DNA of 64,000 bases from Flavobacteriales bacterium (GCA_028281825.1 JANQJC010000124.1:1-64000); one strand, 5' to 3'; positions 9,551 through 28,612 are shown, counted from the stretch's first letter. Notes: generated from the letters alone by a model not told the origin. Numbers and translations: made by a program.

Positions 9551-10972
9551 ATGCAAGACCAAGCCAATAAAGTTAAAAATAGCCGACTTATAAGTCTTTT
9601 AAGTGCTTTTGACAAAGAGGAGTTTAAAGAACTAAAAGATTTTGTCAACTCCCCATTTCACAACAAAAACACAAAAGCAATCCAACTATTAAAAGTTTTG
9701 GAAAGATACTTTCCTGATTTCAATTCTTCCAATTTAACCAGAGAAACCTTACACTCAAGGGTTTTTAAAAACCAAGCCTTCAATGACCTGAACATAAGGC
9801 GAACTATGAGTCAGTTATATCAGGTTGCTGAAAACTACATCGGTTGGAAACAACTAATGAGTAAACCAATTAACCTAAAAGTCGCTCAAATGAAGGCATG
9901 TAGACATAAGGGTTTGCAAAAACACTTTACCAAGAACTCAAAGGACGCAGGAGAGATGCTGAAGAATGAAAAATTCGACCTTGAATACTACTACAATCAA
10001 TATTCTATAGAGCAAGAAAGAGAATATTTTGAAGAGCAATATGGCGGCAGAAGAAGTGTAACCCATCTTCAAGAAGTATCTGATAGCCTTGACATTTTTT
10101 TCATGGTCAATAAGCTGAAGCAAAGTTGCACCACATTCTCTTATGAGCAGGTTTTCAAACACAAATATGACATCCACTTTACAGAAGAAGTTTTGAGCCT
10201 AGTGCATAATAAAGGCATCAACACTCCACTAGTAAACCTATATAGGTATGGGCTCTTAACTATGACTGAACCCGAGAATGAAGCCAATTACCTACACTTG
10301 AAATCACTTTTGAAAGAAGATTTAAACCTTAACCCAAGAGAGGAAAGAAACATACATGTCTTAGGTCAGAACTATTGTATCAGAAATGTAAACAAAGGAA
10401 AGCTGGAATATTTTCAGGAGTTATTCGAACTCTACAAATTGGGGCTCGAAAAGAAAGTAGTACAAAGCGATCTTAGCCAGTTTCCTCCTGCTTTCAAGAA
10501 TATCGTATCAACCGGACTGAAGGTAAAAGAGTACCAATGGGTAGAAGATTTTATATATAAATACTCTAACCTAATTGATGAAGAAAACCTGGCTGACTAT
10601 AAAAACTTTAATCTAGCTCGTCTTTGTTTTGACCAGCAAAGATTCAAAGAAACTAAGCAGTTTCTGCAAGGTGTAGAATTCAAGGACTTATTTGTAACTC
10701 TTAATGCCCGGGTGCTATTAATAAAAACTTATTATGAGCTTGACCAACCTGACCTTCTTGAACATCAACTTAAAAGCTTTGACAATTTCATCTCAAGGCA
10801 AAAGGATTTGTCATATCATGCTACTATATTTAAGAATACCGTAAGGTATATCTCTCGATTGGTTAAGCTGGATTACAATAAGCGAAAAGACATTGATAAA
10901 CTGGTTGAAAGAATTAAAAATGAAAAAACTCTTGCCGAGAGAGATTGGCTGCTATCTAAGCTGGTTAGCTGA
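9551..10972 (+). CDS. Uncharacterised helical (TPR-like) protein, 473 aa
   Basis: Long ORF, alpha-helical Leu/Lys-rich sequence; divergent from the T9SS cargo gene. Confidence 0.75.
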   Translation: MQDQANKVKNSRLISLLSAFDKEEFKELKDFVNSPFHNKNTKAIQLLKVLERYFPDFNSSNLTRETLHSRVFKNQAFNDLNIRRTMSQLYQVAENYIGWKQLMSKPINLKVAQMKACRHKGLQKHFTKNSKDAGEMLKNEKFDLEYYYNQYSIEQEREYFEEQYGGRRSVTHLQEVSDSLDIFFMVNKLKQSCTTFSYEQVFKHKYDIHFTEEVLSLVHNKGINTPLVNLYRYGLLTMTEPENEANYLHLKSLLKEDLNLNPREERNIHVLGQNYCIRNVNKGKLEYFQELFELYKLGLEKKVVQSDLSQFPPAFKNIVSTGLKVKEYQWVEDFIYKYSNLIDEENLADYKNFNLARLCFDQQRFKETKQFLQGVEFKDLFVTLNARVLLIKTYYELDQPDLLEHQLKSFDNFISRQKDLSYHATIFKNTVRYISRLVKLDYNKRKDIDKLVERIKNEKTLAERDWLLSKLVS

Positions 10973-11013: not shown

Positions 11014-11025
11014 TGACAAATGTCA
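11014..11025. promoter_or_regulatory. Candidate Crp/Fnr-type operator TGAC-AAAT-GTCA upstream of ccoI
   Basis: Perfect 4-bp half sites with N4 spacer; same dyad as 13519 and 23894. Confidence 0.55.
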
Positions 11026-11076
11026 TCGCAATCCATCATCCCAGTGTAGACTTTTGTTGAAATAATTTTCATTTGA

Positions 11077-13545
11077 TTGGAAAGTCAAGAACAAATAGTC
11101 GAATGTTACCACTGTGGTGAAATTTGTGAAACCACCGTCATTCCTTTTGATAATAAACCCTTTTGCTGCGAAGGTTGCAAAACCGTATATGAAATTCTCA
11201 GCAGTAACAATCTCTGCGAATATTATAGCATTGATAACAATCCAGGTATCAAGAATGATAAAGGCTTTGAAGAGCAATTCGCTTATCTGGAGAATAATGA
11301 CATACAGAAACAGCTATTGACTTTTACCGATGGAAAAACCAGTAAAGTAATTTTCCATTTACCTAAAATCCATTGTAGTTCATGTATATGGCTTTTGGAA
11401 AACCTGGGCAGGCTCAATAGAGGTGTATTAGCCTCTGAAGTCAACTTTGCCAAAAAAGAGATTACGGTTTCTTTTAAAAATGAGATTGTCAGCCTCAGGC
11501 AACTTGCTGAACTGTTGGCTTCGATAGGCTATGAACCCAACATCAACATGGCTTCTTCTGGAAAAGATAAACCAAATGCAATCCCTAAGTCACTCTATTA
11601 TAAAATTGGGATAGCAGGTTTTTGTTTTGGAAATATCATGCTCTTGAGCTTTCCAGAGTACTTAACGGACAACAATAACATTATTGGTGAGTATGCCCAA
11701 TTATTTACCTACCTAAATTTAGTTTTAGCATTACCTGTTTTCTTTTATTGTAGCACGGATTATTTCCAGTCTGCTTATAAAAGCTTGAAGCATGGTGTTG
11801 TCAATATTGATTTTCCAATCTCTTTGGGAATAATTATTCTTTTTGCACGAAGTGCCTTTGAAATCCTCAGCCAAACTGGTGCTGGCTATATGGATTCCTT
11901 AGCAGGCTTGCTGTTCTTTCTACTCATTGGCAAATGGTTCCAAACCAAAACTTACGAAGCACTTTCCTTTGAGCGTGATTACCGGTCTTATTTCCCATTA
12001 GCAGTATTAAAAAAAGTAGGCAAAACAGAAACCCCTACGCCAGTTAACCAAATCAAAATCGGCGATATTTTAAAAATCAGAAACCAGGAAATCATTCCAA
12101 CCGACTCTATATTAAGTAGCACAGCTGCATCAATAGACTACAGTTTTGTAACCGGGGAATCAACACCCGTTTATGTGGAGAAAGGCGCCTTTGTATACGC
12201 TGGTGGGAAACAGGTCGGAAATTCTATTGAGGTAATAGTAGAAAAAGAGGTGTCCCAGAGCTATCTGACTCAACTTTGGAATAAAAGAGATGAGCAAGAT
12301 GATACCTCATTGATAACTACAATCACAGATAATGCGAGTAAATACTTCACATTTGCTATTCTGGGGATTGCATTGATTACTGGTATCTATTGGTATTTAG
12401 TAGCACCATCACTTGTTTTTAGCACGGTCACCGCTGTATTGATAGTTGCTTGCCCTTGTGCTTTGGCCCTCGCCCTGCCCTTTGCCTTGGGGAATTCTAT
12501 CAGGATATTGGGCAAAAGATTTTTCTACGCCAAAAACACCAATGCTGTTGAAAATCTGGCAGCGATAGATACAATTGTTTTTGACAAAACCGGCACACTC
12601 ACAGATAGCAGTAATGTAAAAGTCAATTACCACGGAAAAGAATTAAGCGAGGAAGAATTGAGCTACATTAAATCCATAGCAGAGCACTCCACTCACCCTT
12701 TAAGCAGAGCAATCTACAGTAGTCTGAAAGCTCAGACGTACAAAACCGATAGTGTAGAAGAAATTCCAGGAAAAGGCTTAAGTGGAGTGGTAAACGGCAA
12801 TACCATAAAAATAGGCTCCATCCGATTTGTGGGCGAAGATGCTCAGGCAAAACAGCGCTCATCTGAAGTATACATCCAGATAAATGGTGAAACTTATGGA
12901 GCCTACCAAATAGAAAGACCTTACAGAACTGGTATTTCTAATCTAATTGGACAATTGAAATATAGAGAGATGGAAATCCATATCCTCTCTGGTGACAATG
13001 AAAGCGAGAAGGAACTACTTCAACAACTCTTTTCACAAAGGGAGAATCTCAATTTCAATTGTTCGCCGATAGACAAGTTGAACTACATCAAGCGCCTGCA
13101 GGAACAAGGAAAAAAAGTATTGATGGTAGGAGATGGCCTTAATGACGCTGGTGCGTTAGGACAAAGCGATGTCGGTATTGCTGTATCTGATGATGTAAAC
13201 AGCTTTGCCCCTGCCTGTGATGTGATAATGGATGTAAAAAAACTACCCGAACTTTTTCAATTTATTGACTTTGCAAAGAATAGTATTAAGGTGGTAAAAG
13301 CCAGTTTCGTGCTGTCTATATTTTACAACACAGTAGGGGTTGCTTTTGCAGTTCAGGGCCTACTGACTCCTGTTATTGCTGCTATTCTAATGCCATTGAG
13401 CTCAATTAGCGTAGTAGCTTTTGTGACTCTAGCTACCAATCTTATCTCAAGAAAAAACAACAGACAGTACATAATACCACGTCAAAGACGACTCTCAGAT
13501 AAGCAAGAAAAAGAAACAGTGACAAAAGTCACCATTCCAGCCTGA
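11077..13545 (+). CDS. ccoI: Heavy-metal (Cu) translocating P-type ATPase, CcoI/FixI-type
   Basis: N-terminal Cys cluster (CYHCGE...CCEGCKTVYE), HMA-like HCSSCIWLLENL, CPC (VACPCALALALPFALG), DKTGTLTDS; adjacent to cbb3 genes. TTG start in the track. Confidence 0.95.
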   Translation: MESQEQIVECYHCGEICETTVIPFDNKPFCCEGCKTVYEILSSNNLCEYYSIDNNPGIKNDKGFEEQFAYLENNDIQKQLLTFTDGKTSKVIFHLPKIHCSSCIWLLENLGRLNRGVLASEVNFAKKEITVSFKNEIVSLRQLAELLASIGYEPNINMASSGKDKPNAIPKSLYYKIGIAGFCFGNIMLLSFPEYLTDNNNIIGEYAQLFTYLNLVLALPVFFYCSTDYFQSAYKSLKHGVVNIDFPISLGIIILFARSAFEILSQTGAGYMDSLAGLLFFLLIGKWFQTKTYEALSFERDYRSYFPLAVLKKVGKTETPTPVNQIKIGDILKIRNQEIIPTDSILSSTAASIDYSFVTGESTPVYVEKGAFVYAGGKQVGNSIEVIVEKEVSQSYLTQLWNKRDEQDDTSLITTITDNASKYFTFAILGIALITGIYWYLVAPSLVFSTVTAVLIVACPCALALALPFALGNSIRILGKRFFYAKNTNAVENLAAIDTIVFDKTGTLTDSSNVKVNYHGKELSEEELSYIKSIAEHSTHPLSRAIYSSLKAQTYKTDSVEEIPGKGLSGVVNGNTIKIGSIRFVGEDAQAKQRSSEVYIQINGETYGAYQIERPYRTGISNLIGQLKYREMEIHILSGDNESEKELLQQLFSQRENLNFNCSPIDKLNYIKRLQEQGKKVLMVGDGLNDAGALGQSDVGIAVSDDVNSFAPACDVIMDVKKLPELFQFIDFAKNSIKVVKASFVLSIFYNTVGVAFAVQGLLTPVIAAILMPLSSISVVAFVTLATNLISRKNNRQYIIPRQRRLSDKQEKETVTKVTIPA
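13519..13532. promoter_or_regulatory. Candidate Crp/Fnr-type operator GTGAC-AAAA-GTCAC upstream of ccoS, inside the ccoI 3' end
   Basis: Perfect 5-bp arms, N4 spacer; centred about 82 bp upstream of the ccoS ATG. Confidence 0.55.
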
Positions 13546-13607
13546 TTACCCTCATTGGGCTACCCTTATCTATTGAGTTGTTTTGCCTTGAAAATTAATT
13601 CATACAA

Positions 13608-13799
13608 ATGAGTGTCATCTTTATACTAATCGGAGCAAGTTTAACAGTAGCAATCATATTCCTACTAGCCTTTTTATGGGCTGTAAAAAATGGACAATAT
13701 GATGATAGTTATACACCATCAGTAAGAATGCTATTTGAAAGCGGAACTCCAAAAACAGAAAAAGAAGACACCAACGGAACAGTTAACAAGAAAGCCTAA
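13608..13799 (+). CDS. ccoS: cbb3-type oxidase assembly protein CcoS
   Basis: MSVIFILIGASLTVAIIFLLAFLWAVKNGQYDD, single TM plus NGQYDD motif, position after ccoI. Confidence 0.92.
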   Translation: MSVIFILIGASLTVAIIFLLAFLWAVKNGQYDDSYTPSVRMLFESGTPKTEKEDTNGTVNKKA

Positions 13800-13803
13800 T
13801 TAT

Positions 13804-15990
13804 ATGAACATCGAGCAGTTTAATTACGATAATGGTACCGTACGAAAATTCGTAATCGCCACAAGTATCTGGGGAATTATAGGTATGACGGTTGGACTCT
13901 TAGTCGCCCTTCAGTTGGTTTGGCCTGACTTAAATTTAACCTCATGGCTGAGTTTTGGGAGAATAAGGCCACTGCATACTAACGCCGTTATTTTTGCATT
14001 TGTAGGTAACGGTATTTTTGCAGGTGTTTATTACTCGTTGCAACGCTTGCTCAAAACCAGAATGTGGAGCGATTTGTTGAGTAACATCAATTTTTGGGGT
14101 TGGCAATTAATCATTTTATCGGCAGTGCTTACCCTACCTTTTGGATACACCACTGGCAAAGAATACGCTGAACTTGAATGGCCAATTGATATCGCTATCA
14201 CCTTATTGTGGGTGGTATTCGGTGTTAATATGTTCGCCACCATATTGGTAAGAAGGGTTAAGCACCTTTACGTTGCGATATGGTTTTTCATTGCCACCTT
14301 CGTTACGGTAGCTGTATTGCACATCGTTAACTCATTTGAGTTACCTGTGAGTTTCTTAAAGAGCTATTCTTGGTATGCTGGTGTTCAAGATGCATTAGTG
14401 CAATGGTGGTATGGACACAACGCGGTGGCTTTCTTCCTTACTACCCCATACCTGGGCTTGATGTACTACTTTGTGCCTAAAGCAGCAAATAGGCCTGTAT
14501 ACTCCTATCGCCTATCGATTATTCACTTTTGGGCATTGATATTCATCTACATTTGGGCTGGCCCTCACCACTTATTATATACCGCATTACCAGACTGGGC
14601 ACAATCTTTAGGTGTTGTGTTCTCAATAATGTTGATTGCGCCATCATGGGGTGGTATGTTAAATGGGCTTTTGACCCTTCGTGGTGCCTGGGATAGAGTG
14701 CGCGAAAGTGCTGTTTTGAAATTCATGGTTGTTGCAATTACCGCTTATGGTATGTCAACATTTGAGGGACCAATGATGTCATTGAAATCAGTGAATGTAA
14801 TCTCTCACTTTACTGACTGGACTATTGCTCACGTACACGTTGGTGGCCTTGGCTGGAATGGTATGCTAACCTTTGGTATGCTTTACTGGTTGGTGCCTAA
14901 AATGTGGAAGACCAAGTTATTCTCGGATACACTGGCTAATGTTCACTTCTGGATTGCTACGCTTGGTATTTTATTATACGCCATCCCAATGTATTGGGCA
15001 GGTTTTACACAAGGTTTGATGTGGCAAGACTTTAACCCAGACGGAACTTTGGTAAATAAAGACTTCTTGGAAACCGTTACTCAGTTACGCTACATGTACA
15101 TGATGCGTGCCACAGGTGGTGGCTTATACATTATCGGTGCATTGGTTATGGTTTATAACCTGATTAAGACCGCTGCATCTGGTAGCTTTATGAAAGACGA
15201 AGCAGCTGAAGCACCAGCACTTGAAAAAGCCGAAACAGGTCATGCCGGTGAGTACTGGCACAGGTTTATTGAAAGAAGGCCAATACAAATGTTAGTATTG
15301 AGCTTAGTATTAATACTTATAGGTGGTTTGGTTGAAATGGTACCTACCTTCCTCATCAAATCAAATATACCTACAATAGAAAGCGTACAGCCTTATACTC
15401 CACTTGAACTGGAAGGGCGTGACTTATACATCAGGGAAGGGTGCTACAATTGCCACTCACAAATGGTAAGACCACTAAGATTTGAGACGGCTCGCTATGG
15501 TGAGTATTCTAAAGCCGGTGAGTTTGTGTATGACCATCCATTCCAGTGGGGTTCAAAACGCACTGGTCCTGACTTGCACCGCGAAGGAAGGGGCAACAAA
15601 CAAAACCGCCCTGATTCATGGCACTATCTGCATATGCTTGAGCCGCAGAATATATCTCCGGGTTCAATTATGCCGGCATATCCCAACTTGATAGAAAATG
15701 ACCTAGATGTGTCTAGTACCCCCGATAAGATTAGAGCGATGCAAACCCTTGGGGTGCCTTATGCCGAAGGTTATGACCAAGAAGCAGTGGCCGACTTGCA
15801 AATTCAGGCAATGGAAATTGCACAAAGCGTTGTGAAAGACATCTCAAAAGATGCCAGCGATGCTAAAGTAGAAGAGTTGAGTAAGAAAGAGATTATCGCA
15901 TTGATAGCCTATCTGCAAAGGTTAGGTTCTGATATCAATGTAGAGAATACGCAACAGGCATCAGCGGAAAACAACACCACTAACCCATAA
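13804..15990 (+). CDS. ccoNO: cbb3-type cytochrome c oxidase, fused subunits I and II (CcoN-CcoO)
   Basis: Heme-copper oxidase subunit I motifs (WWYGHNAVAFFLT, HIHVGGLGWNG-like AHVHVGGLGWNG) followed by a CcoO domain (EGCYNCHSQMVRPLRFETARYGEYSKAGE...GPDLHREG). Track ORF starts at a TTG at 13735; ATG at 13804 (MNIEQFNYDN) is more likely. Confidence 0.95.
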   Translation: MNIEQFNYDNGTVRKFVIATSIWGIIGMTVGLLVALQLVWPDLNLTSWLSFGRIRPLHTNAVIFAFVGNGIFAGVYYSLQRLLKTRMWSDLLSNINFWGWQLIILSAVLTLPFGYTTGKEYAELEWPIDIAITLLWVVFGVNMFATILVRRVKHLYVAIWFFIATFVTVAVLHIVNSFELPVSFLKSYSWYAGVQDALVQWWYGHNAVAFFLTTPYLGLMYYFVPKAANRPVYSYRLSIIHFWALIFIYIWAGPHHLLYTALPDWAQSLGVVFSIMLIAPSWGGMLNGLLTLRGAWDRVRESAVLKFMVVAITAYGMSTFEGPMMSLKSVNVISHFTDWTIAHVHVGGLGWNGMLTFGMLYWLVPKMWKTKLFSDTLANVHFWIATLGILLYAIPMYWAGFTQGLMWQDFNPDGTLVNKDFLETVTQLRYMYMMRATGGGLYIIGALVMVYNLIKTAASGSFMKDEAAEAPALEKAETGHAGEYWHRFIERRPIQMLVLSLVLILIGGLVEMVPTFLIKSNIPTIESVQPYTPLELEGRDLYIREGCYNCHSQMVRPLRFETARYGEYSKAGEFVYDHPFQWGSKRTGPDLHREGRGNKQNRPDSWHYLHMLEPQNISPGSIMPAYPNLIENDLDVSSTPDKIRAMQTLGVPYAEGYDQEAVADLQIQAMEIAQSVVKDISKDASDAKVEELSKKEIIALIAYLQRLGSDINVENTQQASAENNTTNP

Positions 15991-16001
15991 AACTTCAAAC
16001 C

Positions 16002-16172
16002 ATGCTAAAATATATTAAAGATTACATGACAACAATACACGGTATAGAGATATACCCTGTAATATCATTTACCATTTTCTTCACCTTTTTCCTGGTATTG
16101 CTAATATGGGTAATAAAGGCTGACAAGAAGAAAATAAGTGAAATAGAAAGATACCCTTTGGGTGATCAATAA
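16002..16172 (+). CDS. ccoQ: CcoQ-like small cbb3 oxidase subunit (56 aa), absent from the ORF track
   Basis: Direct translation MLKYIKDYMTTIHGIEIYPVISFTIFFTFFLVLLIWVIKADKKKISEIERYPLGDQ*; one TM helix, located between ccoNO and ccoP. Confidence 0.85.
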   Translation: MLKYIKDYMTTIHGIEIYPVISFTIFFTFFLVLLIWVIKADKKKISEIERYPLGDQ

Positions 16173-16209
16173 AAACAGAACACATTAAGTAACGCAAAAA
16201 GACAAAGGC

Positions 16210-17295
16210 ATGAATACTGATAATGAACTTATTTTCTGGCTGTTAGTAGGTGTAGGATTTCTTCTTCTACTTGCTATATTGGCTATGACCAATGCGGTTA
16301 AAAATTTGCTTGCTAGTGACTACTTCAAGAAAAAATTAATGGAAGTAGAAGAAAAGGCTAAAAAAGCAGCCCCATTTATTGCCCTGTTAATAATTGCCAG
16401 TTTACCAGCTAGCGTCTTTGCACAAGCTGGTGAAGTTGACTTGAGTGAACCATTATTGAAAATTACAAAGCAAGAGATACTTATAGTTGCTATTATAGAT
16501 GGCATCTTACTTATCGTATTCTGGTTCATGAAGCGCTTGTTTGACAATATGGTTGCAATGACCAGAACCCAAGAAGAACAAGTAGAACATGAAGTAAAAG
16601 AATCTCAAGCCATAAATAAGATACTTACTGATGCAGTTCCTATTGAGCGTGAAGATGAAATCTTAATGGATCATGACTATGACGGTATTCAAGAATTGGA
16701 TAATAATCTGCCGCCATGGTGGAAATGGGGGTTTTACTTCACTATTGGCTTTGCAGTGATTTATTTATTGAATTATCATGTGTTTGGAACAGGGGACTTG
16801 CAAATTGCAGAGTACAATAAGGAAATTGAACAAGCCAATGCAGATATTGCTGAGTACTTGGCAGAATCTGCCTTGAATGTGGATGAAAACAGCGTTACTG
16901 TCTTGACTGAATCCAGTGACTTAAATGTAGGCCTGGAAATTTATATGTCCTATTGCGCTGTATGCCATGGTCAAAACGGAGAGGGAGTGGTAGGTCCTAA
17001 CATGACAGATAACTATTGGATATATGGCCCTAGCATCAAAGATTTGTTTAAGACCATCAAATATGGAGCAAAGAATGGTATGAAGTCCTGGAAAGACGAA
17101 TTGAACCCATTGGAAATGCAACAGGTGGCTTCTTATATGAAGTCACTGCATGGTACCAACCCAGCCAACCAAAAAGAAGCTCAGGGTGACTATTATGCGC
17201 CTGAAGAAGAAGGTGATGCAGAAGCGACTATAGATAGTCTTGCAGTTGAAAGTGGAGTAGTAGCAGATACCATTGCCACTGAAGTGAGTGAATAG
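16210..17295 (+). CDS. ccoP: cbb3-type cytochrome c oxidase subunit III (CcoP)
   Basis: FixP-type N-terminal segment (DGIQELDNNLPPWWKWGFYFTIGFAVIYLLNYHVFG) and a cytochrome c domain with one CXXCH (YCAVCHGQNGEG). Confidence 0.93.
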   Translation: MNTDNELIFWLLVGVGFLLLLAILAMTNAVKNLLASDYFKKKLMEVEEKAKKAAPFIALLIIASLPASVFAQAGEVDLSEPLLKITKQEILIVAIIDGILLIVFWFMKRLFDNMVAMTRTQEEQVEHEVKESQAINKILTDAVPIEREDEILMDHDYDGIQELDNNLPPWWKWGFYFTIGFAVIYLLNYHVFGTGDLQIAEYNKEIEQANADIAEYLAESALNVDENSVTVLTESSDLNVGLEIYMSYCAVCHGQNGEGVVGPNMTDNYWIYGPSIKDLFKTIKYGAKNGMKSWKDELNPLEMQQVASYMKSLHGTNPANQKEAQGDYYAPEEEGDAEATIDSLAVESGVVADTIATEVSE

Positions 17296-17322
17296 AGTAT
17301 TAACAGCACAATCCGGGGTGCT

Positions 17323-18720
17323 ATGGAGCAGAATGAAAATACATTTAGAGACGGTATTGCTACCGTTGACCAGAAGGGAAAAAGGGTTTGGATATTTCCT
17401 AAAAAACCTAGTGGAATCTGGTATGACAGAAGGAAATGGCTAAGCTATTTCTTTCTAGTATTGCTCTTTACTGGACCTTACATTAAAATAGGTGGTGAAC
17501 CTATTTTACTCTTCAACATTCTCGAGCGTAAGTTTGTCATCTTTGGTAAGATATTTTGGCCACAGGACTTTCACTTGTTTGCCATAGCCATGATAACAGG
17601 AGTAATTTTTGTTGCCCTGTTTACTGTTGTGTATGGCCGCCTTTTTTGCGGCTGGGTTTGTCCGCAAACCATTTTCATGGAAATGCTTTTCAGACGTATC
17701 GAATACGCAATTGAAGGTGATTGGAATGCTCAAAAGCGCCTGAGAAACATGGAGTGGGACAAAGAAAAGATTATCAAAAAGTTTAGCAAACATTCCATTT
17801 TCTGGTTCATTTCATTTCTTATTGCTAACACTTTCCTGGCCTATATTATTGGATATGAAGAGTTATTCGCCATTGTAACAGATTCTCCTGCAAACCATAT
17901 TGGTGGATTAATTGCCATTGTTGCCTTCACCACAGTTTTCTATTTGGTGTTTTCTAAGTTCAGGGAGCAAGTTTGCACTGTAGTATGCCCTTATGGAAGA
18001 TTGCAAGGAGCTTTATTGGACAACAAGTCAATGATTGTAGCTTATGACCACGTGCGTGGTGAAGACAGAGGAAAAATAAGAAAAGATGAAGACCGCTCAC
18101 AAACCAGCAAAGGCGACTGTATTGACTGTCATCAATGTGTGCATGTGTGCCCAACTGGTATTGACATAAGAAATGGAACTCAACTTGAATGCATCAATTG
18201 CACTGCTTGTATTGATGCCTGTGACGCAGTAATGGATAAAGTTGGGTTTGAGAAAGGCTTAGTACGTTATGCCTCTGAAGAGAATATCACCAATAAAACT
18301 CCATTTAAGTTTTCTGTAAAAGCAAAAGCTTATTCTGTAGTGTTGGCTGGTCTTTTGGTGCTACTCACGGTATTGATAGCTGGAAGGAGTGATTTTGAAG
18401 CGACTGTTTTAAGAACACGAGGAACACTTTATCAACAACTGGAGAACAACCAGATTAGCAATATTTACGATATCAACATTGTGAATAAAACCAGGGAAGA
18501 ATTACCCGTAACCATTCGCATTATTGAGGGAGATGGAAAGGTACAAATAGTTGGTAAGGACATCATATTACCACAGCAAAAGGAGGTAAACGGTAAGTTT
18601 ATGATAGTGGTAGATGGTGATAAAATCACTAAAGTGAATACAAACTATGTGCTTGGGGTTTATAGCGGTGATAAACTAATTGAAAAAGTAAAAACAACAT
18701 TTGTAGCTCCAATGCTATAA
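17323..18720 (+). CDS. ccoG: cbb3 oxidase accessory protein CcoG (FixG/RdxA, polyferredoxin-like)
   Basis: FCGWVCPQTIFMEMLFRRIEYAIEGD; GDCIDCHQCVHVCPTGIDIRNGTQLECINCTACIDACD; C-terminal Ig-like domain. Confidence 0.95.
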   Translation: MEQNENTFRDGIATVDQKGKRVWIFPKKPSGIWYDRRKWLSYFFLVLLFTGPYIKIGGEPILLFNILERKFVIFGKIFWPQDFHLFAIAMITGVIFVALFTVVYGRLFCGWVCPQTIFMEMLFRRIEYAIEGDWNAQKRLRNMEWDKEKIIKKFSKHSIFWFISFLIANTFLAYIIGYEELFAIVTDSPANHIGGLIAIVAFTTVFYLVFSKFREQVCTVVCPYGRLQGALLDNKSMIVAYDHVRGEDRGKIRKDEDRSQTSKGDCIDCHQCVHVCPTGIDIRNGTQLECINCTACIDACDAVMDKVGFEKGLVRYASEENITNKTPFKFSVKAKAYSVVLAGLLVLLTVLIAGRSDFEATVLRTRGTLYQQLENNQISNIYDINIVNKTREELPVTIRIIEGDGKVQIVGKDIILPQQKEVNGKFMIVVDGDKITKVNTNYVLGVYSGDKLIEKVKTTFVAPML

Positions 18721-18735
18721 TCAAAAACATAAACT

Positions 18736-19170
18736 ATGAACTGGGGACATAAAATAACAATAGCGATAATAGCTTTCATGAGCTTTATCCTATATATGGT
18801 AGTACAGGCTTCTATGAGGTCTGTAGATTTGGAAGCCGCAGACTATTATCAGCAAGGAATAAGCTACCAGGACTTAATGGAAGCCACCAAGAATGCAGTT
18901 GGATTTGAAGAGAAATTCAAAGTTTCACAGGAAGTTGAAAACCTGGCGATAGAATACCCACAAGAACTTATTGGAGGCTCACTACAAGGAACCCTTCATT
19001 TTTTTAAACCCGACAATTCTAAGTTGGACAAAAGAGTAGAAATTAACATTGGAAATGGCGCTCAATATATTCCTTTGAATGAACTGAGCAAAGGAGTTTA
19101 CGTTTTAAAAATCCATTGGACGAAAAGCGGCAAGGATTATTACATTGAAAAAACATTGAACTTGGAGTAA
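18736..19170 (+). CDS. ccoH: FixH/CcoH family protein
   Basis: MNWGHKITIAIIAFMSFILYMVVQA...DYYQQGISYQ; position after ccoG. Confidence 0.88.
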   Translation: MNWGHKITIAIIAFMSFILYMVVQASMRSVDLEAADYYQQGISYQDLMEATKNAVGFEEKFKVSQEVENLAIEYPQELIGGSLQGTLHFFKPDNSKLDKRVEINIGNGAQYIPLNELSKGVYVLKIHWTKSGKDYYIEKTLNLE

Positions 19171-19171
19171 C

Positions 19172-19873
19172 ATGTTTCTTTGGACAGCATTTGTTTTTGG
19201 CTTATTAGGTAGTTTCCATTGCATTGGAATGTGCGGGCCTATTGCCTTGGCATTGCCCATCCACCACTACAAAGGTTGGCAAAAACCACTTGGTAGTTTT
19301 AGTTACAATGCAGGTAGAATTTTCACTTATGCACTACTAGGTACCATCCTTGGTTTTATCGGTCAGATATTCCGCATAGCCCAAATACAGCAAATTCTTT
19401 CTATTGTGATGGGAATTGTGATATTACTTGCTGTGATTATTCCATTCATCTTCAAATCAAGACCTACTTTCTATAATCCTTTCTATAGCTTAATTGGACA
19501 ACTAAAAGCCCTCTTTGGCAAGCAACTGAAAAAACGTTCTTTTAGCTCCCTTTTTGGTGTTGGGTTACTGAATGGCTTACTCCCTTGTGGAATGGTCTAT
19601 CTGGCTATGGCTGGTGCACTAGCAACCACAACACCTGTTAATGGAGCCATTTACATGGCTGCGTTTGGATTGGGAACATTACCTGTAATGTTTACCGTTC
19701 CATTATTAGGCAACTTCATGCCCCTTAGTTGGAGAAACGCGGTTAGAAAAGCTGTACCAGCAGTAGTAATCATCTTTGGCCTATTATTTATTCTGCGTGG
19801 AATGAATTTGGGTATCCCCTATGTGAGCCCACATGTGAGTGAAGGAAATCAAAGTATAGAAGCATGTCATTGA
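19172..19873 (+). CDS. Sulfite exporter TauE/SafE family (UreH-like) membrane protein, cbb3-associated
   Basis: GSFHCIGMCGPIALALP, GLLPCGMVYLAMAGAL; multiple TM helices; position in the cco cluster. Confidence 0.88.
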   Translation: MFLWTAFVFGLLGSFHCIGMCGPIALALPIHHYKGWQKPLGSFSYNAGRIFTYALLGTILGFIGQIFRIAQIQQILSIVMGIVILLAVIIPFIFKSRPTFYNPFYSLIGQLKALFGKQLKKRSFSSLFGVGLLNGLLPCGMVYLAMAGALATTTPVNGAIYMAAFGLGTLPVMFTVPLLGNFMPLSWRNAVRKAVPAVVIIFGLLFILRGMNLGIPYVSPHVSEGNQSIEACH

Positions 19874-21228
19874 ATAGTGACCTGATAAGAAAATATAATA
19901 TAGCTGGCCCAAGATACACCAGCTACCCTACCGTGCCTTATTGGGACCAAAAGCTAGCTATTAAGGATTGGAAAAGCTCCGTAATTCAGGCTTATGAAGA
20001 AAGCAAAGCCGAAGGAATAAGCCTCTACATACACCTACCCTTTTGTGAAAGCCTGTGTACTTTTTGTGGATGCCACAAGCGAATCACTAAAAACCATAAG
20101 GTTGAATTACCTTATGTTGAAGCAGTATTGAAAGAGTGGGATTTATACCTTTCATTATTAGGCGATTCCCCCAAGATAAAGGAATTACATCTCGGCGGTG
20201 GAACCCCTACTTTCTTCAGCACTAGTAACCTTGAAAAACTAGTCTTGGGAATTCTCGATAAATCTACTCCTATTGCTGATTACGAATTCAGTTTTGAAGC
20301 ACATCCTAATAGCACCGCACAAGAGCAACTGCAAATGCTTCACAACCTTGGATTTAGGCGAGTAAGCTTTGGTATCCAGGATTATGACCCAAAAGTTCAG
20401 AAGACTATCAATAGGGTGCAAACTTTTGAGCAAGTAAAAAAGGTACATGATTGGGCTGGAGAAATTGGTTACACCTCCATCAGCCACGATTTGGTGTTTG
20501 GTTTACCACATCAAACTGTGGAAAGTATAGAGATGACCATTGAAAAAACCAACTTACTAAAACCTGATAGAATTGCTTTTTATAGTTATGCCCATGTACC
20601 TTGGATAAAAGGTGTTGGTCAGCGAGGTTATGATGAAGAAGACCTGCCGAAAGATGAAGCAAAGCGTAAGTTATATGAAACAGGCAAGCAATTACTGGCT
20701 CGCAATGGATATATTGAAATAGGCATGGACCATTTTGCACTAAAAAGTGATTCTCTTTATAAGGCTATGCAAAACAACACTCTTCATCGCAATTTTATGG
20801 GCTATACCACGCAACACACTCAGCTGATGATGGGCTTAGGGATGTCTGCAATTAGTGACAGTTGGTATGCTTTTGCCCAAAACTCAAAAAGTGTTGAAGA
20901 ATACATTGAATTGGTTACCAAAGGCCATTTACCAGTATTTAGAGGACATCTACTCACTCGTGAAGACCTTGTAATCCGTCAACACATACTTAACCTCATG
21001 TGTAGATTTGAGACGGAATGCGGAGTAGAAGATTATTTATACAGAAATGAGATTAAAAAACGATTGAAGCCTCTGGAACAAGATGGCTTAGTAATGGTTA
21101 ACGAGGATAATCAAACCATTCATGTGACTGAAACAGGCAAGGCTATGGTGAGAAATATTTGCATGTGCTTTGACCTGAAGCTACACAGAAATAGACCAGA
21201 AACAAGGTTATTTAGCCAAACTGTGTAA
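19864..21228 (+). CDS. hemN: Oxygen-independent coproporphyrinogen III oxidase
   Basis: KYNIAGPRYTSYPTVPYW, radical-SAM CESLCTFCGCHKRI, LHLGGGTPTF; overlaps the upstream gene by 10 nt. Confidence 0.95.
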   Translation: MSLNSDLIRKYNIAGPRYTSYPTVPYWDQKLAIKDWKSSVIQAYEESKAEGISLYIHLPFCESLCTFCGCHKRITKNHKVELPYVEAVLKEWDLYLSLLGDSPKIKELHLGGGTPTFFSTSNLEKLVLGILDKSTPIADYEFSFEAHPNSTAQEQLQMLHNLGFRRVSFGIQDYDPKVQKTINRVQTFEQVKKVHDWAGEIGYTSISHDLVFGLPHQTVESIEMTIEKTNLLKPDRIAFYSYAHVPWIKGVGQRGYDEEDLPKDEAKRKLYETGKQLLARNGYIEIGMDHFALKSDSLYKAMQNNTLHRNFMGYTTQHTQLMMGLGMSAISDSWYAFAQNSKSVEEYIELVTKGHLPVFRGHLLTREDLVIRQHILNLMCRFETECGVEDYLYRNEIKKRLKPLEQDGLVMVNEDNQTIHVTETGKAMVRNICMCFDLKLHRNRPETRLFSQTV

Positions 21229-21234
21229 ACTTGT

Positions 21235-21242
21235 TAATTTTG
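21235..21242 (+). promoter_or_regulatory. Bacteroidota-type -7 element TAATTTTG ahead of the histidine kinase gene
   Basis: Exact TAnnTTTG match 24 bp upstream of the ATG; no clear -33 TTTG. Confidence 0.4.
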
Positions 21243-21265
21243 CTCCGTTTGAAACAAAAAAACAA

Positions 21266-22819
21266 ATGGAGGCTCCCAATAAGGTAACAAACGTGAAAAT
21301 CAAGGATATCTGTGAAGTCTTGTTTGAAACTGCGGCTGAAGGCCTTATTGTAGCTGATATGAGCGGTTCAATTTGTGTGGCTAATCCTAGGATAACAGAA
21401 ATGTTTGGCTATGCTGAAGATGAGCTTTTGGGAAAAAAGGTGGAAATACTTATACCACAAGAATATCATAAAAAGCACGTTGGGCATAGGGATGGGTACA
21501 GTCACCAACCTACAAAACGCTCTATGGGTATTGGCATGGATTTAAAAGCCAAACGCAAAGATGGAAGTATATTTCCTGTTGAAGTGTCTTTGAATCACTT
21601 TGATATGGAGGGCAACATGATGGTGATGGCGCTTATTTCTGATGTAACTGAAAGAAAAAGGGCTGATGAAAAAATTCTTCAATTAAACTCAGAATTAGAG
21701 AAGAGAGTTGAAGAAAGGACTCAAGCACTTGAAGAGAGTCAATTGCTTTATAGAACAATAGCTCGCAACTTCCCCAACGGTATTATTAGTGTATTTGATA
21801 AAGACCTTAACTATGTGTTTGCCGAAGGGCTTGAGATGTATAAGATAGGGATTACTAGTGATGAACTAAAAGGCACCAACTATCTCACTCGCCTACCTGA
21901 ATCAATCAAAGATGACATTCAATCACAACTTAAAAAAGTGTTTAAGGGGGAAAATATAAGTTTTGAGATTGAAGATAAAGGCCGAACATATATGCTTAAT
22001 GCAGTTGGCTTACAAAACGCCGAAGGTGATATAAACCAAATATTGGTTGTAGAACAAAACATCACCAAACTTAAAACTGCCGAAGAAAATATGAGAAACG
22101 CCTTAGAAAAAGAGAGGTATTTGAATGATTTAAAATCTCGTTTTGTGTCAATGGCTTCTCATGAGTTTCGCACACCATTAACTTCAGTACTTTCTTCAAC
22201 CTCACTTCTTTCAAAGTATATCGGCAAAACTGATAGTGCGGAGAAACAAGAAAAGCACATTAATCGAATCAAGTCGTCTGTACATCATTTGACTGCTATA
22301 CTAAACGACTTTTTATCACTTGATAAGCTTGAAGAAGGAAAAGTGGAATTACACCCTACAGACTTTGATTTTAAGGAGTTTGCCGGTGAGGTTAGCGAAG
22401 AAATTCAGGAAATGGCTAAAAAGGGCCAGCGATTGAATTATGAGCATGAAGGAGAAACAGAAGTTTATCTTGATAAACAAATGCTGAAACACATCCTCAA
22501 CAATTTGCTTTCGAATGCAGTGAAGTATTCACCAGAAGGCAAGGAGATTATATTCAATACTATTATTGATAAAAATTCCCTTACAATAAAGGTTAAGGAT
22601 AACGGTATTGGAATACCAAAGGAAGAACAAGCACAAATGTTTGAACGCTTCTTTAGGGCAAAGAATGCATTTAACATTCAGGGCACTGGGCTAGGGCTTA
22701 ATATCGTAAAGAAGTATATTGATATGTCAGGTGGTTCCATCACATTTGAAAGTGATACTGGCACAGGTACAACTTTTATTGTAAAATTGCCTTTGAAAAA
22801 TAACGTAATCCCCACCTGA
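21266..22819 (+). CDS. PAS-PAS sensor histidine kinase
   Basis: FixL-like PAS (MFGYAEDELLGKKVEILIPQEYHKKHVGHRDGY...GIGMDLKAKRKDGSIFPVEVSL), second PAS, HisKA (MASHEFRTPLTSVLSS), HATPase (LLSNAVKYSPEGKEI, DNGIGIP, GTGLGLNIVKKYI). Confidence 0.95.
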   Translation: MEAPNKVTNVKIKDICEVLFETAAEGLIVADMSGSICVANPRITEMFGYAEDELLGKKVEILIPQEYHKKHVGHRDGYSHQPTKRSMGIGMDLKAKRKDGSIFPVEVSLNHFDMEGNMMVMALISDVTERKRADEKILQLNSELEKRVEERTQALEESQLLYRTIARNFPNGIISVFDKDLNYVFAEGLEMYKIGITSDELKGTNYLTRLPESIKDDIQSQLKKVFKGENISFEIEDKGRTYMLNAVGLQNAEGDINQILVVEQNITKLKTAEENMRNALEKERYLNDLKSRFVSMASHEFRTPLTSVLSSTSLLSKYIGKTDSAEKQEKHINRIKSSVHHLTAILNDFLSLDKLEEGKVELHPTDFDFKEFAGEVSEEIQEMAKKGQRLNYEHEGETEVYLDKQMLKHILNNLLSNAVKYSPEGKEIIFNTIIDKNSLTIKVKDNGIGIPKEEQAQMFERFFRAKNAFNIQGTGLGLNIVKKYIDMSGGSITFESDTGTGTTFIVKLPLKNNVIPT

Positions 22820-23871
22820 TGAAAAAGATACTCTTAATCGAGGATAATGAAGATGTAAGGGAAACTACAGCCGAGATACTTGAGCTCGCTGACTATGACG
22901 TTTTAACAGCAGAAAACGGTAAGATTGGAGTTGAACTGGCAAAAACCAACAAGCCCGAACTTATTATTTGCGATATTATGATGCCCGATCTTGACGGTTA
23001 TGGCGTGTTGCGCATTTTGAGTAAAAATACTGAGACAGCAAACATTCCATTTATCTTTTTAACCGCAAAAGCCGAGAAGAGTGATATGAGAAAAGGAATG
23101 AATATGGGCGCTGATGATTATATCACCAAACCGTTTGAAGAAGCTGAACTGCTAGAGGCAATTGAGACGCGTCTAATACGAAGCGCCAACTTAAGAAAAG
23201 ACTTTAAAGGTGATTTGGAAAGCTTTAACCAGTTTATAGATGAAGCGAGGGGAATAAACGACTTAAGTGACCTTCCGAAAGACCGTAAGACTAAAGAATT
23301 CAATAAGAAAGAAGCTATTTTCAGGGAGAATGACTTTGCTAACTACCTCTATTTTGTCACCAAAGGCAAGGTAAAATGCTTCAAGACTGATGAATATGGT
23401 AAAGAGTTGGTAACAGATTTATATGGACCAGGTGATTTTATTGGATACATGAGCCTGCTGGAGGATACTGATTACAATGAAACTGCAATAGCTATGGAGG
23501 CAACTGAAGTGGCTATTATACCGAAACATGACTTTTTGTCCTTGCTCCAAAAAAACAGGGATGTAGCCAATCAATTTATTAAAATGCTAGCAGGAAATGT
23601 GCTAGAAAAAGAAAATCGCCTATTGCAACTGGCCTATGCCCCTGTTAGGGAAAGAGTAGCCAATGCACTACTTAAATTGATAGCCAAGGAGAATGATTCA
23701 GTGAAGTTGAAAATATCTCGAGAAGACTTGGCCAGTATTGTTGGTACTGCAAAAGAATCACTTATCAGAATGCTGTCTGAGATGAAAAAAGAAGGACTTA
23801 TTGAGAGTGAGGGGCAAACAATTACCATCATGGACCAAGATGGTTTGAAAAGGGCAGCAAGTGGATTTTAA
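22819..23871 (+). CDS. Response regulator with Crp/Fnr-type output (REC + cNMP-binding + HTH_Crp)
   Basis: REC (ILLIEDNED...IICDIMMPDLDG...FLTAKAE...DDYITKPF); cNMP-fold (IFRENDFANYLYFVTKGKVKCFKTDEYGKELV...GPGDFIGYMSLL); Crp HTH (RERVANALLKL...LKISREDLASIVGTAKESLIRMLSEMKKEGLI). Stop/start overlap TGATG with the kinase. Confidence 0.95.
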   Translation: MKKILLIEDNEDVRETTAEILELADYDVLTAENGKIGVELAKTNKPELIICDIMMPDLDGYGVLRILSKNTETANIPFIFLTAKAEKSDMRKGMNMGADDYITKPFEEAELLEAIETRLIRSANLRKDFKGDLESFNQFIDEARGINDLSDLPKDRKTKEFNKKEAIFRENDFANYLYFVTKGKVKCFKTDEYGKELVTDLYGPGDFIGYMSLLEDTDYNETAIAMEATEVAIIPKHDFLSLLQKNRDVANQFIKMLAGNVLEKENRLLQLAYAPVRERVANALLKLIAKENDSVKLKISREDLASIVGTAKESLIRMLSEMKKEGLIESEGQTITIMDQDGLKRAASGF

Positions 23872-23893
23872 TACTTCATTCCAATGTCCAAAA

Positions 23894-23909
23894 GGTGACT
23901 AAAGTCACC
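23894..23909. promoter_or_regulatory. Candidate Crp/Fnr-type operator GGTGAC-TAAA-GTCACC upstream of the uspA-like gene
   Basis: Perfect 6-bp arms, N4 spacer; intergenic between the REC-Crp regulator and the UspA gene. Confidence 0.6.
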
Positions 23910-23996
23910 ACTTACAATTAACCTCTCTCATTTTCCCGAATAAGTCATTGCTTTTTATTTGTAGCTAAATTGATAAACTACTAGTAGAGTTACTCT

Positions 23997-24836
23997 ATGG
24001 CTACGAAAAAAATACTTCTACCAACAGATTTTTCTGATAATGCCAATCATGCTATTGAGTATGCAATTGAGCTGTTTGGCTTTGAAGATGTGAAGTATAT
24101 ACTTATCAATGCATTTGTAGAACCCAATACAAGTGCTGATATGTTAGTTTCAATTAATGATATATTACAAAAGCAGGCAACCGCAGATTTAAATAAAATC
24201 ATATCAAGGCTTGTAAATAATCATCCTGATATTAAAGGCTTATTAGAGCATCGCCTAGAGTATGGCCCACTGGCAACCGCCTTAAAAATAACTACTGAAA
24301 AAGAACATGTTGACTATGTGGTCATGGGAACAAGAGGTGCTTCGGGTATTAAAAAGGCCTTAATTGGCAGCAATACATCGGCAGTAATCAGGAGGGTTAA
24401 ATGCCCGATAATTGCAATACCCGAAAAAGCTGAGATAAAACCCTTGAAGAACATCGCATTGGCCACTGACTATGAAGGGCTTGAAAACGATGAATTGCTT
24501 CAACCATTAGTTGACATCACGAAAAGAAACAGCAGCAAGATATTAGCTGTTAATGTATCTAGGGAACTTGTACTTGCAGGGCCAAATGAGTACGAAACCA
24601 AAGGAATGAGTTTGGGCAAGCAATTTGAAGGGATTAAGCAAAGCTTCTTTACAGTAGAAAATCCTGATGTGGTGCAGGGAGTGAGAGAATTTGCAAAAAA
24701 CCACAAGGTGGATATGCTGGTTATGATATCCAGAAAACACACCCTGTTTGAAAGGTTGTTTTCAACCAGTGTAACCAAAGAAATGTCGATGATTGGCGAA
24801 GTACCATTAATGGTGCTTCACAGCAGGAATACCTAA
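23997..24836 (+). CDS. Universal stress protein (tandem UspA domains)
   Basis: ILLPTDFSDNANHAIEYAIELF...VVMGTRGASGIKKALIGSNTSAVIRRVKCPIIAIP, then a second degenerate Usp domain. Confidence 0.92.
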   Translation: MATKKILLPTDFSDNANHAIEYAIELFGFEDVKYILINAFVEPNTSADMLVSINDILQKQATADLNKIISRLVNNHPDIKGLLEHRLEYGPLATALKITTEKEHVDYVVMGTRGASGIKKALIGSNTSAVIRRVKCPIIAIPEKAEIKPLKNIALATDYEGLENDELLQPLVDITKRNSSKILAVNVSRELVLAGPNEYETKGMSLGKQFEGIKQSFFTVENPDVVQGVREFAKNHKVDMLVMISRKHTLFERLFSTSVTKEMSMIGEVPLMVLHSRNT

Positions 24837-27058: not shown

Positions 27059-28612
27059 ATGTCTAATAAAGTTTCAGAAAGTCTATTCAGATTGATAAAA
27101 TCTCTTACAAAAGCTGAAAAACGCTATTTTAAGATATACTCTTCACGCCATACCATTGGTGAAAAAAACAATTATCAATTATTGTTTGATGCCATCGACA
27201 AACAGGATGAGTATGACGAAGAAGCTATAAAGAAGCAATTCAAAAAGCATGCTTTTATTAAAAAACTTTCTATCGCTAAGGGCCGACTTTACGATGCGAT
27301 ACTGCGAAGCTTAGACGCTTTTCATGCTAACAGTTCTATTGATATACAACTTAAACGCAATCTGCATAGTGTTGAAATACTCTACAACAAATCGCTTTAT
27401 GACCAATGCCATAGGGTATTGCGAAGTGCTAAGAAAACAGCACTCAAGTATCAGAAGCACACTTCACTATTGGAGATTTTCCGTTGGGAGAAAAAACTGA
27501 TAGAAAAGGATAACTATGAGGGTGTAACCAACGAAGACCTTGAAAAGGTATTGAGAGAAAACGAAGATATTCAGCACAAAATTGAAGTGTACAATGAGTT
27601 TTGGTATGTAAAAAGCCGATTATTCAACATTCTCAACAAAAGAGGAAAGGTCCGCACTGAAGAAGAACTTCAAAACTTTAAATCCATCATAGATGAATTC
27701 CTGGTAAAGGCTGAAAAGAAGGATCTTTATTTTAAAACAGAATATCTGTATCACCACATTTACAGCGCTTATTACTTTGGTATTGGTGATTACGAGAGTA
27801 GTTATAAGTATCTCCAACAAAATGTTAAGCACATAGAAAATCACATTGAACTCTTTAAGGAAGAGCCAAATGTTTATTTCTCGGTACTTACCAACGTTAT
27901 TTATATAGGTAGCCAGTTAAAGAGATACGACGAAGTATTTGACTACTTGAAAAGACTACGCGAATTACCAGAGAAACTTCTACTTAACAGGAGTGAGGAT
28001 ATGGACATCAAGCTTTTCTCAAGCGCTTACAGTATTGAGTTGACCATTTATCACCTTACAGGAGAATTTGAGAAAGGACTAGAATTAATTCCTATCGTAG
28101 AAGAAGGCCTAAAGCTATATGGTGACAAAATGAATAGTGTACGTAAGGCCTATTTTTACTTGAACATAGCCGTGCTTTACTTTGGATGTGAGCAATACTC
28201 CAACTCACTGAAATGGATAAACAGGCTGCTCAACGATATAGATATTGACAACAGTCAAGACATCCATTGTTTTGCTCAACTTTTAAACCTATTGATACAT
28301 CTAGAACTAGGGAATGAGAGATTGGTACCCTATGCATTGAAATCTACCCAGAGGTACTTGAATACCAGAAACAGGGTTTATAAGTTTGAAAACTCATTCC
28401 TTAACTTTATTTCGCGTGTACTGAAAATTGACGATAAGGCAGACCTTAAACAAGCTTATATAGACCTAACCACTGAACTTGAGCAACTTGCCAATGACAA
28501 TTTTGAGAAATCTGCTTTTGAATACTTCGACTTCCTGTCATGGGCTGAAAGCAAAGTAACAGGTAAACCATTTAAAAATATTGTCCAGGAAAAGGCTGTA
28601 GTTGTGGATTAG
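27059..28612 (+). CDS. Uncharacterised helical-repeat protein, 517 aa
   Basis: Long helical ORF; N-terminus pattern-similar to the 9551..10972 product. Confidence 0.75.
   Translation: MSNKVSESLFRLIKSLTKAEKRYFKIYSSRHTIGEKNNYQLLFDAIDKQDEYDEEAIKKQFKKHAFIKKLSIAKGRLYDAILRSLDAFHANSSIDIQLKRNLHSVEILYNKSLYDQCHRVLRSAKKTALKYQKHTSLLEIFRWEKKLIEKDNYEGVTNEDLEKVLRENEDIQHKIEVYNEFWYVKSRLFNILNKRGKVRTEEELQNFKSIIDEFLVKAEKKDLYFKTEYLYHHIYSAYYFGIGDYESSYKYLQQNVKHIENHIELFKEEPNVYFSVLTNVIYIGSQLKRYDEVFDYLKRLRELPEKLLLNRSEDMDIKLFSSAYSIELTIYHLTGEFEKGLELIPIVEEGLKLYGDKMNSVRKAYFYLNIAVLYFGCEQYSNSLKWINRLLNDIDIDNSQDIHCFAQLLNLLIHLELGNERLVPYALKSTQRYLNTRNRVYKFENSFLNFISRVLKIDDKADLKQAYIDLTTELEQLANDNFEKSAFEYFDFLSWAESKVTGKPFKNIVQEKAVVVD

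Follow-up and report, generated by a model that had tools for sequence, protein, structure and literature searches.

A predicted FNR/FixK-type operator in the cbb3 oxidase cluster of a Flavobacteriales bacterium and its candidate kinase/REC-Crp reader

Three copies of the dyad TGAC-N4-GTCA found in a 64,000-nucleotide stretch of DNA from a Flavobacteriales bacterium (hereafter the window, with positions counted from its first letter) are, judged by sequence comparison across the class, real control sites that belong to a class-wide operator of the FNR/FixK type. They quite probably serve as the operators of a low-oxygen regulon, which would be read by a relay consisting of a PAS histidine kinase and a REC-Crp response regulator and activated in class II fashion.

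The cco cluster and conservation of its dyads

The genes and sites of the cluster all lie on the + strand. The first gene, ccoI (11077..13545), encodes a copper-transporting P-type ATPase of cbb3 oxidase assembly (Pfam E1-E2_ATPase, ATPase-cat_bd and HMA), and is followed by ccoS (FixS; 13608..13799; Pfam FixS, E 3e-21), the first gene of the cco operon, by ccoNO (13804..15990; Pfam COX1 and FixO), in which subunits I and II of the oxidase are fused, and by ccoP (16210..17295; Pfam FixP_N and Cytochrome_CBB3). In keeping with a gene order conserved in relatives, we take the next three ORFs to be ccoG (17323-18720), ccoH (18736-19170) and a DsbD/sulfite-exporter-like membrane gene (19172-19873); the ORF at 19864..21228 is presumably hemN, encoding an oxygen-independent coproporphyrinogen oxidase. 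Next come the genes for the PAS histidine kinase (21266..22819; Pfam PAS, HisKA and HATPase_c), the first PAS domain of which is FixL/DosP-like, for the REC-Crp response regulator proposed to read the operator (22819..23871; Response_reg, cNMP_binding and HTH_Crp_2), and for a tandem universal stress protein (usp, 23997..24836; Pfam Usp). Two ORFs with no Pfam match, at 9551-10972 (473 aa) and 27059-28612 (517 aa), flank the cluster; they are alike in size and look and are possibly paralogues.

An earlier, sequence-only reading of the window had reported TGAC-N4-GTCA at three places, and the pattern proved exact at each of them (TGACaaatGTCA at 11014, TGACaaaaGTCA at 13520 and TGACtaaaGTCA at 23896). 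Operator 1 (11014..11025) lies 5' of ccoI, at a distance of 51 bp from the TTG start at 11077 instead of the 52 bp originally given. Operator 2 (GTGACaaaaGTCAC, 13520..13531) is located, as described, in the 3' end of ccoI and ahead of ccoS, which begins 76 bp downstream, a position relative to ccoS that is the same in relatives. Operator 3 (GGTGACtaaaGTCACC, 23896..23907) occupies the gap between the REC-Crp gene and usp where it had been placed, and a dyad is also present in the corresponding gap of another locus (L072). The same reading had allowed that further copies might have escaped the eye; a fourth TGACN4GTCA indeed occurs at 28246-28257, inside the 517-aa ORF mentioned above and with the promoter geometry absent. 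Being coding and without register, this copy was rejected as an operator and looks like a product of chance.

Four copies were observed in the window against 0.81 expected, and 2 of 100 shuffles reached four, which makes the count only mildly unusual. Across the whole assembly (4.02 Mb), 33 copies of the bare pattern stood against 50 matches to the reversed pattern, indicative of no genome-wide enrichment relative to this control; the local cluster alone therefore proved little. An all-A/T spacer was found in only four of the 33 assembly copies, three of which are the reported sites. Because searches of the family and order returned this genome only, the class was used for comparison, and footprinting, which the sequence-only reading had called for, was carried out on 60 loci centred on ccoNO. 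In this cco-centred sample, TGACN4GTCA occurred 42 times, mostly just 5' of ccoS, ccoI or usp, with 38 intergenic and four coding copies, compared to one intergenic and 22 coding copies among the 23 matches to the reversed control. The dyad is thus conserved at orthologous loci, and it is this conservation, not the insufficient window statistics, that secures the earlier view that three such dyads were unlikely to have arisen by chance.

We also counted every perfect dyad with four-base arms and spacers of 0-12 (3,328 kinds), no motif having been chosen beforehand. Upstream of ccoS, TGAT-N4-ATCA ranked first (21 of 58 regions) and TGAC-N4-GTCA second (19 of 58), with a mean of 0.24 per kind; the same two dyads ranked first and third upstream of usp, and TGAC-N4-GTCA was second upstream of ccoI and absent upstream of ccoP and ccoG. 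The compared genomes being related, these counts do not represent independent events. Allowing Y/R brought the dyad to 50 of the 58 ccoS upstream regions. The enrichment that was to be tested upstream of cco genes, usp and hemN was therefore found for ccoS, ccoI and usp; it was weak for hemN (9 of 26 upstream regions), and no operator was present directly upstream of hemN in the window.

Box consensus and promoter register

The half-site had been thought to be distinct from that of the FNR box. It is not, since its fourth base is T at some orthologous positions and C at others, pointing to the FNR/FixK-type box TGAY-N4-RTCA. The predicted operator is a variant of this box, (A/C)TGAY-N4-RTCA(T/G), which retains the TGAY-N4-RTCA core and lacks the outer T of TTGAT...ATCAA. 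The outer base was A in 44%, C in 33% and T in 11% of the half-sites of genomes with REC-Crp, and A in 71%, C in 24% and T in 3% of those of other genomes, so that A or C accounted for at least three quarters of the half-sites and T was rare; at the three window sites, it is C, G and G. An assignment of the TGAC form to REC-Crp and of the TGAT form to FNR was considered and abandoned, as both groups use both forms about equally.

In flavobacteria, the -7 element TAnnTTTG spans positions -12 to -5 (PMC9723704). Counting from the first base of the dyad, TTTG started at +39 in 23 of 30 proximal or single sites and at +61 in 22 of 30 distal sites, other offsets being represented by at most five sites. 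Of the 30 pairs of tandem boxes lying less than 24 bp apart, 29 had a spacing of exactly 22 bp and one of 23 bp. With TAnnTTTG at -12 to -5, the box centres fall at -41.5 and -63.5. A centre at -41.5, known as the classic position of a class II activator and expected of FNR/FixK-type control, is here given by the register to TAnnTTTG, the start sites themselves being predicted.

In the ccoI promoter, TTTG begins exactly 39 bp past the first base of operator 1, as it does in relatives, which yields a predicted centre of -41.5. The near-consensus -7 element previously noticed after this dyad, GACTTTTG (11049..11056; consensus TAnnTTTG), is thus in the register seen in relatives, and the predicted transcription start is at ~11061. 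At sites 2 and 3, TTTG is found at +62 from the dyad and at +39 from a degenerate proximal box, the -7 elements being TTGTTTTG (13578..13585) for ccoS and TTTATTTG (23954..23961) for usp, with predicted transcription starts at ~13590 and ~23966, respectively. The proximal boxes, TGATtaccCTCA (13543..13554) and TAACctctCTCA (23919..23930), have predicted centres at -41.5, leaving the distal dyads at -64.5; both are weak, the latter being weak on its own, and lie 23 bp, not 22 bp, past their distal partners. Given the TTTG at +62 and the in-register proximal boxes, sites 2 and 3 are predicted to be the distal members of tandem promoters, site 2 despite its overlap with the end of ccoI. The window contains four further TGAY-N4-RTCA dyads, none of which has the register seen at the three reported ones.

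A search of the assembly for box plus register returned 12 matches per register, compared to six each for the reversed pattern. Besides those of the window, intergenic matches with a close downstream start codon were located upstream of seven other genes. Tandem boxes with 22-bp spacing and an in-register TTTG preceded an ArsR-family gene, a gene for a 128-aa protein (no Pfam match) and a flavodoxin gene (G000 C77:20363-20427, C84:2129-2193 and C137:5583-5647; L249, L251 and L254). The other matches were upstream of paaA, encoding a phenylacetyl-CoA epoxidase subunit (G000 C116:24992, L238), of the gene for a YgaP-like membrane protein (C84:33329, L252), and of genes for a 180-aa and a 59-aa membrane protein. 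Some of these unlinked matches may be due to chance.

The kinase/REC-Crp pair and alternative readings

In the proposed mechanism, the PAS histidine kinase (21266-22819) would phosphorylate Asp52 of the adjacent REC-Crp (22819-23871), whose Crp-type dimer would bind (A/C)TGAY-N4-RTCA(T/G) centred at -41.5 and, where the promoter has two boxes, also the one lying 22-23 bp upstream. As a class II activator, REC-Crp would then stimulate sigma-A transcription at TAnnTTTG promoters, its targets being ccoI, the ccoS-NO-P-G-H operon, usp and a few unlinked redox genes. The domain architecture and the catalytic and recognition residues described below are seen in the sequences; phosphotransfer and binding are predicted.

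The best PDB match of the first PAS domain was FixL 1d06 (E 3e-15), followed by DosP. His71 occupies the haem-ligand position, at which 67 of the 71 aligned ungapped rows (two FixL references included) have His; in that PAS cluster, haem binding is determined chiefly by the F-alpha His (PMC10468136). The kinase thus probably senses oxygen or redox state through haem, in the manner of FixL, and oxygen would be its likeliest signal. The position of the distal Arg of FixL (Arg220) is occupied by Met in this kinase and is variable in relatives, and the ligand may therefore not be O2; the equivalent residue in DosP is Met95. It is accordingly possible, although distinctly less probable than the low-oxygen activation favoured here, that the system operates as proposed with another signal or sign, the kinase sensing NO, CO or redox state, or REC-Crp repressing through the proximal site that overlaps the promoter. 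A second upstream site could indeed serve looping or repression. A centre at -41.5, however, is where a class II activator classically sits, and targets such as the cbb3 oxidase, the copper pump and usp fit low oxygen, the flavobacterium F. psychrophilum inducing its cbb3 oxidase under oxygen limitation (PMC9723704).

The organism belongs to the Bacteroidota, and the closest relatives identified through REC-Crp were MAGs labelled as Chitinophagales and Owenweeksia. Of 295 genomes sampled across the class, 143 had a REC-Crp orthologue (44-71% identity); the kinase gene almost always precedes these orthologues, and usp, ccoI or ccoGH often adjoin, in many families. Among the cultured relatives, Arcicella (L082) has the kinase/REC-Crp pair. 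At one locus from a bog MAG (L108:10001-11421), REC-Crp aligned in two overlapping pieces, suggestive of a frameshift or assembly error. D52 and K104 of the receiver were invariant in all 83 sequences, so that REC-Crp has the phospho-acceptor Asp, the conserved Lys and the adjacent kinase of a response regulator. A cNMP_binding fold and HTH_Crp place it in the Crp/Fnr superfamily, and its output domain is HTH_Crp_2, not the LuxR/NarL-type HTH of FixJ. An N-terminal Cys cluster with a further Cys for a [4Fe-4S] center was sought in the REC-Crp orthologues, and none was found. The recognition residues E-x-x-I-R (E in 83/83, I in 79/83 and R in 83/83 sequences) are common to REC-Crp and cco-linked FNR-type proteins; the Ile stands where FNR has Ser212. 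In a tree of Crp domains, all 83 REC-Crp sequences fell in one group with a support of 0.03, and we therefore make no claim as to ancestry. Autoregulation of REC-Crp or of the kinase gene through the box was considered and rejected, the box occurring in only 3 of 68 and 12 of 64 of their respective upstream regions; with the promoter of REC-Crp itself rarely carrying it, there is no signature of autoregulation.

Genomes without REC-Crp frequently encode a cco-adjacent plain Crp-family protein with the CX2CX8C motif and a further Cys typical of FNR. Among 167 cco genomes, 76 had REC-Crp with no FNR-type match, 49 displayed the reverse, 28 had both and 14 neither (odds ratio 0.105, a statistic that ignores phylogeny), the two regulators being distributed in a complementary manner. 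Matches counted as FNR-type were those whose alignment started in the N-terminal Cys region of the query; they were tallied by hand with weak matches left out, and absence refers to one query at a threshold of E <= 1e-45 in assemblies that differ in completeness. Of the genomes tested, 34 of 36 with REC-Crp only, 17 of 18 with FNR only and 16 of 17 with both had the dyad in the 350 bp preceding ccoN. Where neither regulator was found, four genomes (G059, G091, G096 and G128) lacked an in-register box, three (G090, G223 and G248, each 71-95% complete) had one, and two (G133 and G193) had one together with a cco-linked Crp protein bearing the same helix; as natural knock-outs, such genomes are suggestive only. 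Two further loci (L260 and L261) encode cco-adjacent Crp-family proteins with the same recognition helix and box and with neither the CX2C...C cluster nor a receiver, possibly a third kind of reader.

It is unlikely that the dyads, while being operators, are bound here by a Crp/FNR protein other than the adjacent REC-Crp. FNR-type proteins beside cco in lineages without REC-Crp do share its recognition helix and box, and some genomes carry both regulators. Yet, this 96%-complete genome yielded no FNR-type match at E <= 1e-45, its two other Crp-like proteins (C39 and C3) have different recognition helices, and the box is kept in nearly all tested genomes with REC-Crp and no FNR-type match. No candidate other than REC-Crp is therefore visible here, and the most likely reader of the operator in this lineage is the kinase/REC-Crp pair, in place of FNR. 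The original proposal that the dyad is the operator of the local Crp-type regulator consequently stands as regards ccoI, ccoS and usp, with REC-Crp as the best candidate, but the box is not private to it, as FNR-type lineages share it. Finally, that the three dyads are chance palindromes unrelated to regulation is improbable in the extreme: the bare pattern shows no genome-wide enrichment and shuffled windows occasionally hold four copies, but footprinting already contradicts chance, as do the promoter register and the ranking of the dyads.

Relation to known systems

The predicted operator has in common with the FNR/FixK/ANR box (TTGAT-N4-ATCAA) and class II FNR promoters the TGAY-N4-RTCA core, the 12-bp dyad, the -41.5 centre, the cbb3 operon as a target and the conserved E and R of the recognition helix. 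It differs from them in its outer base (A/C, not T), in a -7 element that is TAnnTTTG and not TATAAT, in the frequent presence of a second box exactly 22 bp upstream, and in a reader devoid of a Cys cluster. A FixL-type PAS kinase, a response regulator and a Crp-type protein without Fe-S are also found in the FixL-FixJ-FixK system of rhizobia, the targets of which, cbb3 (fixNOQP) and fixGHIS, are likewise shared. Here, in contrast, receiver and Crp-type output are one protein and there is no LuxR-type FixJ output domain, so that one transcription step would be skipped; a single REC-Crp would perform the work of both FixJ and FixK, and the box it would read is shared with the FNR-type proteins of sister lineages. 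The [4Fe-4S] FNR-type regulators found beside cco in other Bacteroidota have the same box, recognition helix and target operon, but carry an N-terminal Cys cluster where the present system has a receiver domain and a partner kinase.

On balance, we lean towards the view that a Bacteroidota-wide cis code (tandem (A/C)TGAY boxes at -41.5/-63.5 and TAnnTTTG) has been kept while the sensor has been exchanged, an Fe-S FNR in some lineages and a single-step relay of haem-PAS kinase and REC-Crp in others, the latter amounting to a FixLJK cascade collapsed into two proteins. In Proteobacteria, both this class of box and the control of cbb3 in class II fashion are already known. To our knowledge, the oxygen control of the high-affinity oxidase has scarcely been described in Bacteroidota, and no description of an operator or regulator for it was found in the open-access literature, consulted mainly as titles and abstracts; within that literature, the variant outer base, the tandem with 22-bp spacing, a REC-Crp protein as reader and the replacement of one reader by another appear to be undescribed. 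The analysis thus provides a testable operator, a promoter geometry and two alternative candidate readers for a phylum that is common in soils, in the sea and in wastewater, and what would be an example from nature of sensors being exchanged while the DNA code stays the same.
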